Of a stretch of DNA of 38,040 nucleotides, positions 4,395-33,410 are shown one piece after another (the stretch's first letter is position 1; each line of letters starts with the position of its first letter). The notes beneath the pieces were generated by a model, which had not been told where the DNA came from, searched no databases, and saw nothing but the letters and a program-made list of their open reading frames with translations. The DNA is from Paracoccaceae bacterium. GTDB taxonomy: Bacteria > Pseudomonadota > Alphaproteobacteria > Rhodobacterales > Rhodobacteraceae. Where the stretch lies: assembly GCA_009924775.1 (NCBI GenBank), contig RFQY01000004.1, forward strand, positions 1 to 38,040, in the 5' to 3' direction. The position numbers and the translations under genes are program-made.

Positions 4395-5876
4395 ATGAGC
4401 GTAGAAATGACAGATCTGAAATCGCGGCTGAAAGATCCAAGCCTGTTGGCCGAACTGGCCTATTGCGCCGGCGAATGGGTGCAGGGCGAGGGCGGGGCCA
4501 CCTTTGCCGTGACCAACCCAGCGCGCGGCGATGTGATTGCCAATGTGGCCGATCTCAGCCGCGCCCAAGTGGCCGCAACCATTGCCAAAGCGGAAGCCGC
4601 CCAAAAAGAATGGGCACAATGGACCGGCAAAGAGCGCGCCACCGTGCTGCGCCGCTGGTTTGACCTGATGATGGCCAACCAAGACGATCTGGGCACGATT
4701 TTGACCGCCGAACAGGGCAAACCGCTGGCCGAAGCCAAGGGCGAAATTGCCTATGGTGCCTCGTTCATCGAATTTTTTGCAGAAGAGGCCAAACGTATCT
4801 ACGGCGAAACCATTCCCGGCCATCAGCGCGACAAACGCATTATGGTCCTTAAGCAGCCCATCGGGGTTGCCGCCAGCATCACGCCGTGGAACTTCCCCAA
4901 CGCCATGATCACCCGCAAGGCAGGCCCGGCCCTGGCCGCAGGCTGTGCCTTTGTCGGCCGCCCCGCCGCGGAAACACCGCTATCGGCGCTGGTTATGGGC
5001 GTTCTGGCCGAGCGCGCGGGCATCCCGAAGGGGGTGTTCAGCATCGTCACCTCGTCGCGCTCGAGCGAGATTGGCAAAGAGTTTTGCGAAAACCCCGCCG
5101 TGCGCAAACTGACCTTCACCGGCTCGACCGAGGTGGGCCGCATCTTGCTGCGCCAAGCGGCCGATAGCGTGATGAAATGCAGCATGGAGCTGGGCGGCAA
5201 CGCGCCCTTTATCGTGTTTGACGATGCCGATCTGGACGCCGCCGTCGAAGGCGCGATCCTGTGCAAGTTCCGCAACAACGGCCAGACCTGCGTTTGCGCC
5301 AACCGCATCTATGTGCAAGCGGGCGTTTATGACGCTTTTGCCGAAAAACTGGCCGCACGCGTGGCACAGATGAAAGTGGGCGATGGGCTAGAGGCAGGCA
5401 CAGATCTGGGCCCGTTGATCAACACCGACGCCATCACCAAAGTGCAAGAACACGTGGCCGATGCCCTGGCCAAAGGCGCCAAAGTTTTGGTGGGTGGCGG
5501 CGAGCCGCTGCAGGGCCCCGGCAATTTCTTGCCCCCCACCATTGTGACCGGCGCCACACAGGACATGCTGTTTTCCAAAGACGAAACCTTTGGCCCGCTG
5601 GCGCCTTTGTTCAAATTCGACACTGTGGATGACGTGATTGCCATGGCCAATGATACGATCTTTGGCTTGGCCAGCTATTTCTACGCCAAAGACCTGAGCC
5701 GCGTTTACAAGGTGGCCGAGGCGCTGGAATACGGGATTGTGGGCGTAAATACCGGCATCATCTCGACCGAGGTTGCGCCTTTTGGTGGCGTCAAGCAATC
5801 GGGCCTTGGGCGTGAGGGCAGCCATCACGGCATCGAGGATTATCTGGAAATCAAATATATCTGCATGTCGGTCTGA
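4395..5876 (+). CDS. gabD: NAD(P)-dependent succinate-semialdehyde dehydrogenase
   Basis: The 493-residue aldehyde dehydrogenase oxidises succinate semialdehyde to succinate, the last step of 4-aminobutyrate breakdown, in the cytoplasm. The cofactor region contains TPWNFPNAMITRKAGPALAAG and FTGSTEVGR. The catalytic Glu265 lies in MELGGNAPF and the nucleophile Cys299 in NNGQTCVCANR. Residues around TPWNFP, SIVTSSRSSEIG and the C-terminal GVNTGIISTEVAPFGG fit the GabD branch better than betaine- or aromatic-aldehyde dehydrogenases. The start at 4395 is set by GAGGAGGG at 4383-4390. One oddity is Arg189 in FVGRPAAETP, where most family members have Lys (VLKPAS type). No gabT aminotransferase is adjacent. 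A strong terminator follows at 5896-5930. Confidence 0.9.
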   Translation: MSVEMTDLKSRLKDPSLLAELAYCAGEWVQGEGGATFAVTNPARGDVIANVADLSRAQVAATIAKAEAAQKEWAQWTGKERATVLRRWFDLMMANQDDLGTILTAEQGKPLAEAKGEIAYGASFIEFFAEEAKRIYGETIPGHQRDKRIMVLKQPIGVAASITPWNFPNAMITRKAGPALAAGCAFVGRPAAETPLSALVMGVLAERAGIPKGVFSIVTSSRSSEIGKEFCENPAVRKLTFTGSTEVGRILLRQAADSVMKCSMELGGNAPFIVFDDADLDAAVEGAILCKFRNNGQTCVCANRIYVQAGVYDAFAEKLAARVAQMKVGDGLEAGTDLGPLINTDAITKVQEHVADALAKGAKVLVGGGEPLQGPGNFLPPTIVTGATQDMLFSKDETFGPLAPLFKFDTVDDVIAMANDTIFGLASYFYAKDLSRVYKVAEALEYGIVGVNTGIISTEVAPFGGVKQSGLGREGSHHGIEDYLEIKYICMSV

Positions 5877-5895
5877 TCCGGCCAGACCAAGCGGC

Positions 5896-5930
5896 AACGG
5901 GCGGGGCCAACTGACCCCGCCCGTTTTGTT
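5896..5930 (+). terminator. rho-independent terminator of gabD
   Basis: An 11-bp perfect stem (arms 5896-5906 and 5915-5925, GGGCGGGG core) with an 8-base loop is followed by TTTTGTTTT. It starts 20 bases after the gabD stop codon. This is the classic shape of an intrinsic terminator on the plus strand. Confidence 0.9.
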
Positions 5931-5947
5931 TTGACCCCGCTCTTTTT

Positions 5948-5969
5948 GAGTATTTAGAGCAAGATGAAG
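5948..5969 (-). repeat. 3'-UTR motif copy 1 (downstream of hsp20)
   Basis: The minus-strand sequence TTCATCTTGCTCTAAATACTC begins 6 bases after the hsp20 stop codon. The same 21-nt word recurs at 25294-25314 (one mismatch) and 36899-36919 (identical). All three lie sense-oriented just after a gene. Function unknown. Confidence 0.7.
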
Positions 5970-5974
5970 GTAGA

Positions 5975-6460
5975 TTAGTTCAAAGCCGCCGGCGCCGAGA
6001 TTTCAGCGGCCCCCGCCTGCGGGCTGTGGCCTGCGCGGCTGATTTCGATTTGGCGCGGTTTCAACGCCTCGGGCAGGATGCGCGCCAGATCGATGTGGAG
6101 CATGCCATCGGCATGGGCGGCGGCTGTGACGCGCATGTGATCGGCCAAGTGGAAGCGCCGCTCGAAGGCGCGGGTGGCGATGCCGCGGTGCAGGAAGCTG
6201 CGGGTGTCTTCGCCTGTCTCTTGCGGTTTTTGGGCCGAAACGATCAGGGCGTTTTCGCGCAGCTCGACCGAAAGATCATCGGCCGAGAACCCGGCAACCG
6301 CGATGGAAATGCGATAGGCGTTTTCATCGGTTTTTTCGATATTGTAGGGGGGGTAGGTCGACTGGCCAACATCATTGGCGAAAACGCGATCCATGAGATC
6401 GGCGATTTGGTCAAAACCAACCGTGGCGCGGTAAAGCGGTGCAAGATCAAAATTACGCAT
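5975..6460 (-). CDS. small heat-shock protein, Hsp20/IbpA family
   Basis: The 161-residue protein is an ATP-independent chaperone that holds unfolding proteins for later refolding. It has an N-terminal segment (MRNFDLAPLYRATVGFDQI) typical of IbpA-type proteins, an alpha-crystallin domain from about residue 35 (YPPYNIEKTDENAYRISIAV) to the FERRFHLADHM strand, and an Ala-rich C-terminal tail. The start at 6460 is set by GGAGG about 7 bases upstream; the longer open frame to 6688 overlaps the glcF gene and lacks family similarity. The 5' leader holds a candidate ROSE thermometer and a candidate RpoH promoter, listed separately. Transcription reading through from glcDEF, on the same strand, could also reach this gene. 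Confidence 0.92.
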   Translation of the reverse strand: MRNFDLAPLYRATVGFDQIADLMDRVFANDVGQSTYPPYNIEKTDENAYRISIAVAGFSADDLSVELRENALIVSAQKPQETGEDTRSFLHRGIATRAFERRFHLADHMRVTAAAHADGMLHIDLARILPEALKPRQIEISRAGHSPQAGAAEISAPAALN

Positions 6461-6545
6461 GCAATCCTCCGTTGAGCGATGCCTTGTGTGATGGCCCTCC
6501 GGTGGGACGGGCCGGTGCGTGCGGGCCCCGATTGGGCACCCGACA
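6461..6545 (-). promoter_or_regulatory. candidate ROSE-like RNA thermometer in the hsp20 leader
   Basis: On the minus strand, the bases just before the hsp20 start read UCGCU, CAACGG, AGGA, then UUGC and AUG. The ROSE family of heat-shock leaders is defined by U(U/C)GCU pairing with the Shine-Dalgarno AGGA through a G-G pair and a bulged C, and this arrangement matches. A-U and G-C pairs can extend the stem outward. Further upstream, GGGCC and GGCCC arms (around 6495-6530) can form an additional hairpin. The leader length of about 85 nt from the proposed promoter is also typical. No folding calculation was done. Confidence 0.6.
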
Positions 6546-6551
6546 CCGATT

Positions 6552-6580
6552 AGGTGGGCGCGCACCGGCGAAGGTTCAAG
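6552..6580 (-). promoter_or_regulatory. candidate RpoH (sigma-32) promoter for hsp20
   Basis: Reading the minus strand, CTTGAA (6575-6580), 16 bases, then CCCACCT (6552-6558) resembles the alphaproteobacterial heat-shock promoter pattern CTTG-N17/18-CCCATnT, with one deviation in the -10 part. It lies just after the glcF stop codon and about 85-90 bases before the hsp20 start. Confidence 0.45.
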
Positions 6581-6584
6581 GGGG

Positions 6585-7931
6585 CTAGCGCAATATCGGC
6601 ACCGCCATGGCGCTGGGCAGGCTGGGTGCATGGCCGGGCTGGGTGGCGCCCATCGCAGGGGGCACGGGGCCGCCTGTGGCCCAATCAAGCAATTCGACCG
6701 TGTGCACCACGGGCACGCCCGCCGCGCTGCCGATTTGCATCATACAGCCGATGTTGCCCGCGGCGATGACATCGGGGTTGCGGGCCTGCAAGGTGGCCAG
6801 TTTGCGCGCCTTGAGCTGGGCCGAGATTTCGGGCTGCATCAGGTTATAGGTACCAGCCGAGCCGCAGCACAGATGGCTGTCTGCGGGTTCGACCACGCGA
6901 AAGCCTGCGCGTTTGAGCAAGGTTTTGGGGTGATCTTTGATTTGCTGGCCGTGTTGCAGGCTGCAGGCCGCGTGATAGGCCACAGTCAGCGCCGGGGCGG
7001 TGGTGGCGTGGGGTAGATCAAGTTTTATCAGCACTTCGCTGATATCCATCGCGATGGCGCTGACGCTCTGGGCATCGGCGGCAAGCGGGCTGGTGCGGAA
7101 CATATGCCCGTAGTCCTTGATCGTGGTGCCACAGCCCGAGGTGTTGATGACGATCGCATCCAGCCCTTGGCCATCCATCTCGGCCGCCCAGGCGCGGATA
7201 TTGCGGGCCGCAGATTGGTGGCTTTCGTCGGTTTTGCCCATGTGATGGGTCAGCGCGCCGCAGCAGCCCGCGCCTTTGGGCACCACGACCTCGCAGCCAA
7301 GGCGGGTGAGCAGGCGAATGGTGGCATCGTTGATATCGGTGTTCAGCGCCTTTTGCGCACAGCCTGTCATCAGCGCCACACGCATTTTGCGCGGGGCCTT
7401 GGGCGCAAAGCTTTGCGGGTCGTCGTTGCGGCTGACGGGGGGCAGGCTGCGCGGGGCCATGGCCAGCATGGCGCGAAGGCGGGCATCGGGAATGAGCCGG
7501 GCAAAGGGGCGCCCGATTTGTGCCAGCAACAGCGCCACGCGGAACCGTTTTGGGTGGGGCAGAATGCGTGCCAAAACCCAGCGCAACAGCCGCTCGCCCA
7601 GCGGGCGGCGGTAGGTGTTTTCGATATATTCGCGGGCGTGATCGACCAGATGCATGTAATGCACACCGCTGGGGCAGGTGCTCATGCAGGCCAGGCAAGA
7701 GAGGCAACGGTCGATGTGTTTTACCGTTTTGGCATCGGGCACGCGGTTATTTTCCAGCATGTCCTTGATCAGGTAGATGCGGCCACGGGGGCTGTCCAAC
7801 TCGTCGCCAAGCACCTGATAGGTGGGGCATGTTGCGGTGCAAAAGCCGCAATGCACGCAGGCGCGTAAAATGTCATTGGCGCGGGCAGTGCCCGGATCTT
7901 GTAGCTGTGTTGGTGTGAAATGTGTTTGCAT
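6585..7931 (-). CDS. glcF: glycolate oxidase iron-sulfur subunit GlcF
   Basis: This is the third subunit of the glycolate dehydrogenase complex (GlcDEF), which oxidises glycolate to glyoxylate and passes electrons towards quinone. The 448-residue protein has two [4Fe-4S] binding groups near the N-terminus: Cys25, 28, 31 and 35 in CVHCGFCTATC, then Cys76, 79, 82 and 86 in CLSCLACMSTC. Two CCG-type domains follow, seen as GAGCCGALTHHMG and HLCCGSAGTYNLMQP. Length and order match GlcF. Its start overlaps the glcE stop by one base (TGATG), so translation is coupled. The stop at 6585 lies next to the proposed hsp20 promoter, and no terminator is visible between them. Confidence 0.94.
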   Translation of the reverse strand: MQTHFTPTQLQDPGTARANDILRACVHCGFCTATCPTYQVLGDELDSPRGRIYLIKDMLENNRVPDAKTVKHIDRCLSCLACMSTCPSGVHYMHLVDHAREYIENTYRRPLGERLLRWVLARILPHPKRFRVALLLAQIGRPFARLIPDARLRAMLAMAPRSLPPVSRNDDPQSFAPKAPRKMRVALMTGCAQKALNTDINDATIRLLTRLGCEVVVPKGAGCCGALTHHMGKTDESHQSAARNIRAWAAEMDGQGLDAIVINTSGCGTTIKDYGHMFRTSPLAADAQSVSAIAMDISEVLIKLDLPHATTAPALTVAYHAACSLQHGQQIKDHPKTLLKRAGFRVVEPADSHLCCGSAGTYNLMQPEISAQLKARKLATLQARNPDVIAAGNIGCMMQIGSAAGVPVVHTVELLDWATGGPVPPAMGATQPGHAPSLPSAMAVPILR

Positions 7932-9064
7932 CAGCCCATCAACCCCGGGTTAAGAATGGCTTTTGGATCAAAGCGGTGGCGCAGGGCGCGGGCCAGCGCG
8001 GCAGTGGCGGGCGGTTCTGGCTGGAAGACGGCCAAAGAGGTGCGCAGCGCGGTGGGCGCCTTTAGCATGGTGACATGGCCGCCAAGGGTGGCAATTTCTG
8101 CGCGCAGGCGGGCATGGGTATTTGCGGCATTTTCTGCGGTTTGCGCGCCCAGCCATATCAGCCCCCCACCCCAATCGATTTGGCATTTCAGCTGCTGCTC
8201 TGGGTCAACAGCTGCCAAAAAGGCCGGCGCATCGCTGGGTTTCAGCGATACCCGCCACAAGGTTTCGCAGCCAACCAGCGCCCCGGCATCGCGTATTGTT
8301 TGCCACAAGGTGTTGGCGGCCGTGCCTTGGATGTGGTCGGCTTGGCCAAAGGGCTGCAGGCGCTGGGCCAAGGCCCCCACCCGGTAGGCGACCGAGCGTT
8401 CCATGCCCTCTAGGCGCAGCAGGGTTTGGCCCTGCACCCAAGCCGCGCCGCTTACTTCGAAAGGCGAGGACAGCGCCGCCGCCATTGTCGCCACGGCGCG
8501 GGCAGGATCGTGGCCGGAAAAGGCCAGTGTGACTTGGGTTTCGGGAATGGGCAGCACTTTGAAGCTGACCTCGGTGATCACCCCAAGCGTGCCAAAGCTG
8601 CCTGCCATCAGCTTGACCAAGTCATAGCCGGTGACGTTTTTCATGACCCGCCCACCATTTTTCAACACCCGCCCAGCACCATCGACAAAGCGCGCGCCCA
8701 GCAGGAAATCGCGGCATGCGCCCACTTGCACCCGGCGCGGGCCGCTGACATTGGCGGCCACCACGCCACCAATGGTTGGGGTGCCGGTGGTGCCCAAGAC
8801 GGGGCGGTGATCCATTGGCTCGAAGGGCAGGCGCTGGCCTTCGGCGGCAAGGGCTGCCTCGATCTGGGCCAGGGGCGTGCCGGCGCGGGCCACCAAGGTC
8901 AGCGCGCCCGGCTCGTATTCGACAATGCCATCCATCGCCTCGGTTGACAGGGGTGTGCCAATGACCGGCGCCCCGATATCGCGGGTTGCACCGCCCTGAA
9001 TGCGCAAGGCGCCTTTGGCGGTGGCGATTGCTTCGGCCAGATCAGCTTCGCTGGTGGGGTGCAT
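7931..9064 (-). CDS. glcE: glycolate oxidase FAD-binding subunit GlcE
   Basis: GlcE is the shorter flavin-type subunit of glycolate dehydrogenase. The protein of about 377 residues shows the FAD-binding PCMH fold: LRIQGGATRDIG near the N-terminus, GIVEYEPGALTLVARAGTPL, GGVVAANVSGPRRVQVGACRD and VMKNVTGYDLVKLMAGSFGTLG. These match GlcE of E. coli in order. Two start codons compete: ATG at 9064 (MHPTSEADL) has AGGA 9 bases upstream, while the ATG at 9070 (adding MP) has it only 3 bases upstream, so I prefer 9064. The open frame to 9118 has no better site. glcD ends 72 bases upstream and glcF overlaps downstream. Confidence 0.92.
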   Translation of the reverse strand: MHPTSEADLAEAIATAKGALRIQGGATRDIGAPVIGTPLSTEAMDGIVEYEPGALTLVARAGTPLAQIEAALAAEGQRLPFEPMDHRPVLGTTGTPTIGGVVAANVSGPRRVQVGACRDFLLGARFVDGAGRVLKNGGRVMKNVTGYDLVKLMAGSFGTLGVITEVSFKVLPIPETQVTLAFSGHDPARAVATMAAALSSPFEVSGAAWVQGQTLLRLEGMERSVAYRVGALAQRLQPFGQADHIQGTAANTLWQTIRDAGALVGCETLWRVSLKPSDAPAFLAAVDPEQQLKCQIDWGGGLIWLGAQTAENAANTHARLRAEIATLGGHVTMLKAPTALRTSLAVFQPEPPATAALARALRHRFDPKAILNPGLMG

Positions 9065-9136
9065 GGGCATTGATCCTAGGTGGTCGGGCCGCGGCAAGGG
9101 CGGGCATGGAAAACACAAAACAGCACAAAGCCTGCG

Positions 9137-10585
9137 CTATTCAGCGGCAATCTGGGCTTGGCGGCGGGGTTCCGAGGCGGCCAGCGGAAACACCTTGGCG
9201 GGGTTTAGCAACCATTTCGGATCGAACACGTCTTTGACGGCCATTTGAATATCTAGATCATCGGGGGCGAATTGATCGACCATGAGATCGCGTTTTTCAA
9301 TGCCCACGCCATGCTCGCCCGTCAGGCAGCCCCCCACCTCGACGCACAGGCGCAAGATATCGGCGCCGAAGGCCTCGCACAGCTCTAGATCGCCGGGTTT
9401 GTTGGCATCAAACAAGATCAGCGGGTGCATATTGCCGTCGCCGGCATGAAATACATTGCCCACGCCCAGCCCATAGTCTTTTGACATTTCCCCGATGCGG
9501 CGCAGCACATAGGGCAGCTGGCTTACGGGGATTGTGCCGTCAAGGCACATGTAATCGTTGATCTGGCCCATCGCGCCAAAGGCCGATTTGCGGCCCAGCC
9601 AAATGCGGCGGGCCTGTTCTTCGTCGGCGGCTTCGCGCAATTCCACCGGGTTGTGGCGGCGGGCGATCGCGGTGATAAGGGCCAGCTGTTCGTCGATTTC
9701 ATCGGCCGAGCCTTCTACCTCGACGATCAGCAGCGCCTCGCAATCGGGATAGCCTGCCTTGGCAAAGGCCTCGGTTGCGCGGATGCATGGGCGATCCATG
9801 AATTCAATCGCCACGGGCAAAACGCCGGCCTTGATGATATCGCTGACCACTTGGCCGGCCACCTCGTTGCTGTCATAGCCCATCAGCACGGGGCGCGCGC
9901 CCTCGGGTTTGGGAAGAATGCGCAATGTGGCCTCGGTGACAACGCCCAACTGCCCCTCCGAGCCGCAGATCACACCCAAGAAATCTAGGCCGGGTGCATC
10001 CATATGGGCGCCGCCCAGTTCCAGCACTGTGCCATCCATCAGCACCAAGGTCACGCCCAACAGGTTATTGGTGGTGACGCCGTATTTCAGGCAATGCGCC
10101 CCCCCCGAATTCATGGCGATATTGCCCGAAATCGCGCAGGCCAGCTGGCTGCTGGGATCGGGGGCATAGAAGAACCCATCCGCCTCGACCGCGCCGGTAA
10201 CCGACAGGTTGGTGCGCCCCGATTGCACCCGCACAAAGCGGTTGTCGTAATCCACCTCTAGCACATCATTCATGCGCGCCACGCCCAAGATCACGCTATC
10301 TGCGGTGGGCAAAGCCCCCCCCGCCAATGAGGTGCCCGAGCCGCGCGGCACCACTGGCACACCCATTTCATGGCAAATGCGCAGCACATCAGACACTTGT
10401 TGCGTGGTGCTGGGCAGCACGGCGCATAAAGGTGGGCAGCGATAGGCGGTCAGCGCATCGCATTCATAGGCGCGGGTTTCGGCCTCGTCATGGATAACGG
10501 CATCGGGGGCCAGCACCTCTTGCAGGCGCGCCACAAGGCGGGGTTTCAGGGCAAGAACCGCAGGGTTTGGGGCTGGCATTTCCAT
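9137..10585 (-). CDS. glcD: glycolate oxidase catalytic FAD subunit GlcD
   Basis: GlcD is the catalytic subunit of glycolate dehydrogenase. The 482-residue protein has an N-terminal FAD-binding PCMH domain (VPVVPRGSGTSLAGGALP, ISGNIAMNSGGAHCLKYGVT, GVICGSEGQLGVVTEATLRI) and a C-terminal FAD-oxidase domain with GVGNVFHAGDGNMHPLILFD and GGCLTGEHGVGIEKRD. The ATG at 10585 (MEMPAPNPAV) is preferred; AAGGCG lies about 10 bases upstream. The open frame continues to 10702 but those residues would run through the promoter and operator. It is the first gene of glcDEF. Glyoxylate made here would enter central metabolism, but no glyoxylate genes are in the window. Confidence 0.95.
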   Translation of the reverse strand: MEMPAPNPAVLALKPRLVARLQEVLAPDAVIHDEAETRAYECDALTAYRCPPLCAVLPSTTQQVSDVLRICHEMGVPVVPRGSGTSLAGGALPTADSVILGVARMNDVLEVDYDNRFVRVQSGRTNLSVTGAVEADGFFYAPDPSSQLACAISGNIAMNSGGAHCLKYGVTTNNLLGVTLVLMDGTVLELGGAHMDAPGLDFLGVICGSEGQLGVVTEATLRILPKPEGARPVLMGYDSNEVAGQVVSDIIKAGVLPVAIEFMDRPCIRATEAFAKAGYPDCEALLIVEVEGSADEIDEQLALITAIARRHNPVELREAADEEQARRIWLGRKSAFGAMGQINDYMCLDGTIPVSQLPYVLRRIGEMSKDYGLGVGNVFHAGDGNMHPLILFDANKPGDLELCEAFGADILRLCVEVGGCLTGEHGVGIEKRDLMVDQFAPDDLDIQMAVKDVFDPKWLLNPAKVFPLAASEPRRQAQIAAE

Positions 10586-10606
10586 AAGCAAAGGCGCCTT
10601 TTGTTC

Positions 10607-10631
10607 AATTGGTAATATTTTTATACCAATT
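10607..10631. promoter_or_regulatory. inverted repeat, likely operator of glcDEF
   Basis: AATTGGTA (10607-10614) and TACCAATT (10624-10631) form perfect 8-bp arms around a 9-base AT-rich spacer. TTGGT/ACCAA half-sites are typical of FadR-subfamily GntR regulators such as GlcC, LldR and PdhR, though the usual sites have a much shorter spacer. The repeat overlaps the -10 box, which suits repression. No regulator gene is adjacent. Confidence 0.6.
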
Positions 10632-10647
10632 ACCACAGCTATGGCAA
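10620..10647 (-). promoter_or_regulatory. sigma-70-type promoter of glcDEF
   Basis: Reading the minus strand, TTGCCA (10642-10647), 16 bases, then TATAAA (10620-10625) gives a good housekeeping promoter. It is the only strongly AT-rich stretch in this divergent gap. The expected start of transcription lies about 28 bases before the glcD ATG. The inverted repeat at 10607-10631 covers the -10 box. Confidence 0.6.
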
Positions 10648-10705
10648 GCCTTGATACGCCCCGCTTGCCCCTTGCAAAAACCCAGCCCACAGGGCAGCAC
10701 AAGAT

Positions 10706-33243: not shown

Positions 33244-33410
33244 AATCACGGAAGGTGTCAATCTTCCGGTCCTATGTTGTGAACAAGGATCGCCCCCCGT
33301 CAGCGCGTTGCGCCCACGGGGGTGATTGCAATTTGCAACAGGGGTTTCACGAACCACCCCGCCCCCCCATATGGGCGGCAAGGCAGCCATGGCGGAAAGG
33401 AGCCAGAGAC
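33244..33410 (+). other. structured 5' leader of ffh
   Basis: The leader of about 167 bases contains CGGAAG/CTTCCG arms with an 8-base loop (near 33251-33270). A larger hairpin (near 33288-33324) has CCCCCGT pairing with ACGGGGG and flanking ATC/GAT pairs. The ribosome site AAAGGAG at 33396-33402 is not inside these hairpins. No known riboswitch is recognised, and the SRP RNA signature is absent. Confidence 0.4.

Follow-up and report, generated by a model that had tools for sequence, protein, structure and literature searches.

Here we report that the 5′ leader of an hsp20 mRNA, at about 6543 to 6461 on the minus strand of contig RFQY01000004.1 of a Paracoccaceae bacterium, reads as a ROSE-type RNA thermometer under heat-shock sigma control, an assignment to which we give a probability of about 0.9. 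The window analysed is the whole stretch of 38,040 nucleotides (nt). The original prediction, made from the letters of the DNA, had pointed to the ROSE rule, in which U(U/C)GCU faces the Shine-Dalgarno (SD) sequence, directly before the start of a small heat-shock gene. This match is present on the minus strand, where UCGCU-CAACGG-AGGA stands at 6479-6465 and is followed by UUGC and by the AUG at 6460, leaving the AGGA four bases before the hsp20 start, and the domain search confirmed the nature of the gene. A comparison of 81 leaders showed three hairpins kept by covariation, the last of which, as modelled on these sequences, pairs the SD with the imperfect anti-SD UCGCU. The features of the leader and its gene are as follows.

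6522 to 6542, minus strand: hairpin 1, in which G6537 is bulged; 6 of its 8 modelled pairs changed on both sides, 98.5% of pair cells paired in the 81 leaders.
6493 to 6513, minus strand: hairpin 2, with bulged G6508; 98.7% of pair cells paired, all 8 pairs changed on both sides.
6461 to 6482, minus strand: hairpin 3, SD-blocking; 90.0% of pair cells paired, 25 cells changed on both sides, the mean in shuffles being 8.0.
6475 to 6479, minus strand: UCGCU, the ROSE motif U(U/C)GCU; G6477 opposite G6467, C6476 extra.
6465 to 6468, minus strand: AGGA, the SD core; the same columns read AGGA in 81 of 81 leaders.
5975 to 6460, minus strand: hsp20, a small heat-shock protein of 161 amino acids; Hsp20/alpha-crystallin, PF00011, E 2.2e-18.

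The relatives compared were the best 80 named loci from a longer list of protein matches, with a similar layout by eye, and with the window they gave the 81 leaders; the closest protein among these best 80 came from a Lutimaribacter metagenome-assembled genome of the order Rhodobacterales (95% identity). A covariance model, R1, was built from 28 of the 80 relatives picked for clean alignment, the window and its nearest relative (L005) being excluded, and its structure was drawn after looking at the sequences. This subset was used because the raw alignment, given to RNAalifold without guidance, yielded a weak and partial structure. R1 matched 6456-6543 with 47.2 bits (E 2.2e-9 in the window and 1.9e-7 in the genome), while its only other matches in the genome at E up to 10 scored 16.1 and 14.0 bits, which supports the ROSE-type reading of the original prediction, from which we infer thermosensing itself. 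All 81 leaders, 53 of them outside the set used for model building, were matched end to end by R1 (27.6 to 83.2 bits). In alignment A3, which contains the 81 leaders and, being fitted to R1, leans towards it, 95.7% of pair cells were standard and 19 of 24 pairs were changed on both sides; the 210 cells changed on both sides compare with a shuffle mean of 54.9, a count that none of 500 shuffles reached, and no slid version of the structure exceeded 60.6% paired. The unfitted alignment A2 of the 28 sequences gave 94.5% paired and 55 cells changed on both sides versus 15.4 in shuffles. Most of the covariation is carried by hairpins 1 and 2.

We then considered the core of hairpin 3. The letters in the motif columns were U, C or U, G, C and U in 81/81 leaders, with C at the second place in 80 and U in one, and a perfect UCCU in the left arm of this hairpin occurred in none of them, indicating conservation of the imperfect pairing itself. 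Had close relatives lost the UYGCU/AGGA pairing, the original prediction would by its own terms have been given up; we looked for such a loss, and both parts are kept in every leader, that of the window included. The ViennaRNA drawing of the core has a bulged G and a C-G pair, as an alternative to a G-G pair with a bulged C. Nuclear magnetic resonance work by Chowdhury in 2006 reportedly found the G-G pair and bulged C in the ROSE core. In other respects, too, the leader resembles a ROSE element, as it lies directly before a small heat-shock gene, its transcript start being placed from the promoter signature only, and as the two to four conserved hairpins of such elements correspond here to three helices with covariation, helix 3 being more weakly supported.

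The spread of the element was studied in the family and in the class. At E<=0.1, R1 found 110 places in 107 of 120 family genomes (the own genome included), and 107 of these 110 lie at the start of an hsp20 orthologue, so that 107 of the 113 hsp20 orthologues in the family have an R1 match at their start. Among the six class-A leaders of the family without such a match, five carry UCGCU and the sixth UUGCCU, by eye. The Rfam ROSE model, searched at E<=1, gave 36 places in 35 of the 120 genomes, 33 of which adjoin an hsp20 orthologue. At the class level R1 matched 31 of 190 genomes at E<=0.01, with 32 places outside the own genome; the loci were checked for 29 of these, and all 29 fetched loci adjoin an hsp20 relative. 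The Rfam ROSE search across the class placed six of eight loci beside an hsp20 relative and two elsewhere. R1 (33.8 bits) and Rfam ROSE (39.1 bits) matched the same place in one class genome (G281), a direct link between the two models. A scan of 20 further sources with every Rfam family gave ROSE as the family present in leaders (7/20, one above its cut-off), and the two other matches lay outside the leaders and below cut-off. These counts make ROSE-type control of hsp20 the rule in this bacterial family and not the exception. At the standard Rfam cut-off nearly all of the family's ROSE-type leaders go unreported; the family models (R1, and R2 below) would annotate them.

A single family genome exceeds the Rfam ROSE cut-off, with 53.3 bits at L176:126-217 (G101:C1:527325-527416). 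The element there carries UUGCU and lies before a different gene, small heat-shock-like by eye, which has perhaps been acquired.

The genome has a second hsp20, on contig C80, with UGUCGCUUUAGAUCAAGGACG before its start and a shorter, two-hairpin ROSE-like leader (G000, contig C80:21566-21635, minus strand; also L004 and L215). UCGCU was found in 19/19 second-copy leaders from relatives, and the base next to the motif forms a G-C pair in 18 of them and an A-U pair in one. By eye, 18 of the 19 carry a GCC...GGG with an extra G that resembles hairpin 1, and hairpin 2 is absent. A second model, R2, was built from these 19 leaders, which are part of the rows listed, with hairpin 3 alone set as paired; it scored 47.2 bits on the genome's own second copy, with the next match in the genome at 20.8 bits, and at E<=0.01 it was found in 99 of the 120 family genomes, the comparison with gene starts covering the 19 leaders. 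Three bases past the end of the second hsp20 starts a DUF1150 protein (L004:1258-1485, minus strand; PF06620, E 7.5e-22), and the two genes probably form one operon.

Upstream of the hairpins, two promoter-like elements were read.

6575 to 6580, minus strand: CTTGAA, a -35-like element of sigma-32 (RpoH) type, read in the sequence.
6552 to 6558, minus strand: CCCACCT, a -10-like element; the family consensus at these places is CCCANAT.

The signature fits the sigma-32 consensus NNCTTGAA-N(13-18)-CNCCATAT in the accessible part of PMC3669281, and would place the transcription start near 6543-6547. TTGA stands 34-39 nt before the start of hairpin 1 in 80 of the 81 leaders, and TTGA-N15-20-CC[AC] occurs in 73 of them, against a mean of 1.13 and a maximum of 5 in 200 mononucleotide shuffles, the pattern having been chosen after looking and the shuffles keeping single-base, not two-base, composition. 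A scan of 5850-6650 for a sigma-70 promoter gave sites inside the gene only, and that candidate was dropped. We take RSP_1016 and RSP_1572 to be the hsp20 genes of Rhodobacter sphaeroides. Both are listed in the RpoHI regulon under protein folding, in the text available from PMC3441632.

On this basis we propose a thermometer model. RpoH would make the hsp20 mRNA, as suggested by the upstream sequence; at growth temperature hairpin 3 would hide the SD and keep translation low; on heating, the weak core, with its apparent G-G opposition and extra C, would open by degrees, with hairpins 1 and 2 remaining folded, and ribosomes would bind. With the mRNA made by RpoH, heat would act twice, on transcription and on translation. 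Switching of this kind is a matter of modelling: the mean predicted openness of the SD in the 81 leaders was 0.208 at 15 °C and 0.295 at 50 °C, and at 25 °C it was 0.219 versus 0.424 with the upstream part shuffled, being lower in 65 of 81. The support from predicted opening is weak because the energy model lacks the non-canonical core. Both the modest opening and the strong promoter signature would suit a static leader, one that reduces translation or stabilises the mRNA whatever the temperature, while heat acts through the RpoH promoter only. We regard such a leader as highly improbable, since the mismatched motif of tested thermometers is kept in all 81 leaders and never replaced by a perfect anti-SD, and since it recurs in the genome's second hsp20 and in each of the 19 second-copy leaders taken.

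Several observations weigh against the thermometer assignment. In A2, 128 of 500 shuffles reach the count of pairs changed on both sides, and for hairpin 3 alone 39 of 500 do so; the core pairs U-A, C-G and U-A of hairpin 3 are almost invariant, so that covariation is no test of them, and 40 of 79 sequences lack its outer pair 97-120. From the raw alignment, RNAalifold run without guidance recovered no more than hairpin 3 and two of the pairs in hairpin 1 (-1.32 kcal/mol). The leader of the window is no more stable than expected, with a folding energy z of -0.56 and with 45 of 200 shuffles equalling or exceeding its stability, and single-sequence stability was therefore rejected as evidence. 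The stable low-temperature hairpin over AGGA foreseen in the original prediction was thus upheld in part: the SD is paired in every ViennaRNA fragment, and its partner depends on the fragment, since a change of the 5′ or 3′ end redirects the SD to other stretches, the start of the coding region being among its partners. A predicted long-range pairing of 6520-6516 with 6459-6455 was set aside because the nearest relative (L005) differs in the upstream letters, by eye. The probability that the SD of the window is unpaired rises from 0.05 at 15 °C to 0.26 at 50 °C, a gradual predicted melting that is not diagnostic, and one of the four leaders detailed (L008) has the opposite trend, from 0.61 to 0.42. 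The Rfam ROSE model (RF00435), which had been suggested as a check and is the better of only two Rfam families that the leader matches at E up to 10, aligned with it from end to end (6454-6543), but its 18.2 bits lie below the gathering cut-off of 45, so that we do not file the leader as a member of RF00435. Across the family the cut-off is exceeded in one of 120 genomes, and there not at the leader of an orthologue.

Some of these values are what a chance match, with motif and hairpins that have no function, would give. TCGCTN{3,9}AGGA has 38 sites in the genome (3.27 Mb) versus 25 for the pattern read backwards, and the motif count, being near chance, was rejected as evidence. The Rfam score alone was likewise rejected as being at chance level, because a second match in the genome reaches 17.6 bits within a long open frame that is cobaltochelatase-like by eye. 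The site stands well above chance because of the comparative evidence and not because of the motif: R1 matches every leader, the pairs covary, and the matches lie at hsp20 starts in family and class, so that covariation and position, taken across the family, already refute a chance match.

A different question is whether the leader mainly serves as a binding site for the small heat-shock protein, which would thereby repress translation of its own mRNA. Such self-repression is described for E. coli IbpA, where a positive charge at the K98 place is needed, in the accessible text of PMC10474464. In such a scheme aggregates would draw the protein off and so release the mRNA, and temperature would be sensed through the protein and not, or not only, through melting of the RNA. 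The numbering of the E. coli IbpA sequence used here agrees with five residues named in PMC10474464. The window protein, 80/80 orthologues and 20/20 second-copy proteins have Y and R at the Y34 and R93 places, as self-repression would expect, and it could also account for the bulged G of hairpin 1, which is G in 81 of 81 leaders (that of hairpin 2 is kept in 78 of 81) and is unexplained by SD blocking alone. At the K98 place, R or K is found in 80/80 first copies, whereas all 20 second-copy (class-B) proteins have S, T, A or V, yet their leaders keep the hairpin; the two Hsp20 copies may differ as IbpB and IbpA do. In E. coli, moreover, self-repression coexists with a thermometer, and would thus add to it rather than replace it. 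As the main role of the leader we find self-repression improbable. A leader with two inputs, in which hairpin 3 melts and hairpin 1 with its bulged G is a putative recognition site, most likely for Hsp20 itself, is a somewhat better but still doubtful proposal. If true, one leader would read both temperature and the load of unfolded protein. The invariant bulged G of hairpin 1 offers a definite position for asking whether accessory hairpins do more than aid folding.

The leader lies in a 124-nt minus-strand gap between the stop codon of a glcF-like gene at 6585 and the hsp20 start at 6460, which contains, in order, CTTGAA (6580-6575), CCCACCT (6558-6552) and the hairpins at 6542-6522, 6513-6493 and 6482-6461. 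Directly upstream of hsp20 and on the same strand, three genes at 6585-10702 carry iron-sulphur/CCG and FAD-linked oxidase domains and are presumably the glycolate oxidase genes glcF, glcE and glcD. On the other side, a strong inverted repeat with a T run at 5896-5925, probably a terminator, lies between the end of hsp20 and that of the aldehyde dehydrogenase gene which converges on it. The sole Rfam match above cut-off in the window is the ffh sRNA (RF01793) at 33279-33330 on the plus strand, with 62.3 bits against a cut-off of 35.

Compared with known systems, the leader shares its place before a small heat-shock gene with ROSE1 of Bradyrhizobium hspA, with E. coli ibpA and with the short form at Pseudomonas ibpA, and it shares with alpha- and gamma-proteobacterial ROSE elements the U(U/C)GCU opposite the SD in the 3′ hairpin and the extra hairpins upstream, as described in the accessible part of PMC3669281. 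It differs from those elements in that the family of the window has UCGCU nearly always (80/81), with an invariant bulged G in hairpin 1 and a usual one in hairpin 2, and is too distant in sequence for the Rfam ROSE cut-off. In Pseudomonas putida, ibpA has a sigma-32 promoter and a ROSE element, giving two layers of heat control; the CTTGAA-like -35 and the position of ROSE at the 5′ end of the mRNA are alike, whereas its two hairpins, as given in PMC3669281, contrast with three in the window leader, and the genome's second hsp20 is nearer to the two-hairpin form. Nautella sp. R11, of the marine Roseobacter clade, has ROSE-like motifs at ibpA and hspD, and thus two small heat-shock genes with such a motif at each, as in this genome, a likeness drawn by description only from the accessible text of PMC3230580. 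For RNA thermometers and heat shock in the Rhodobacteraceae, that paper was the only one to come up, and a literature search by title, with most subscription papers outside its reach, found no family-wide study of ROSE in the Rhodobacteraceae. The leader is therefore a real but ordinary member of the known ROSE class, and what is new are small details, namely its spread in the family, its loss at the Rfam cut-off and the invariant bulged G in hairpin 1.
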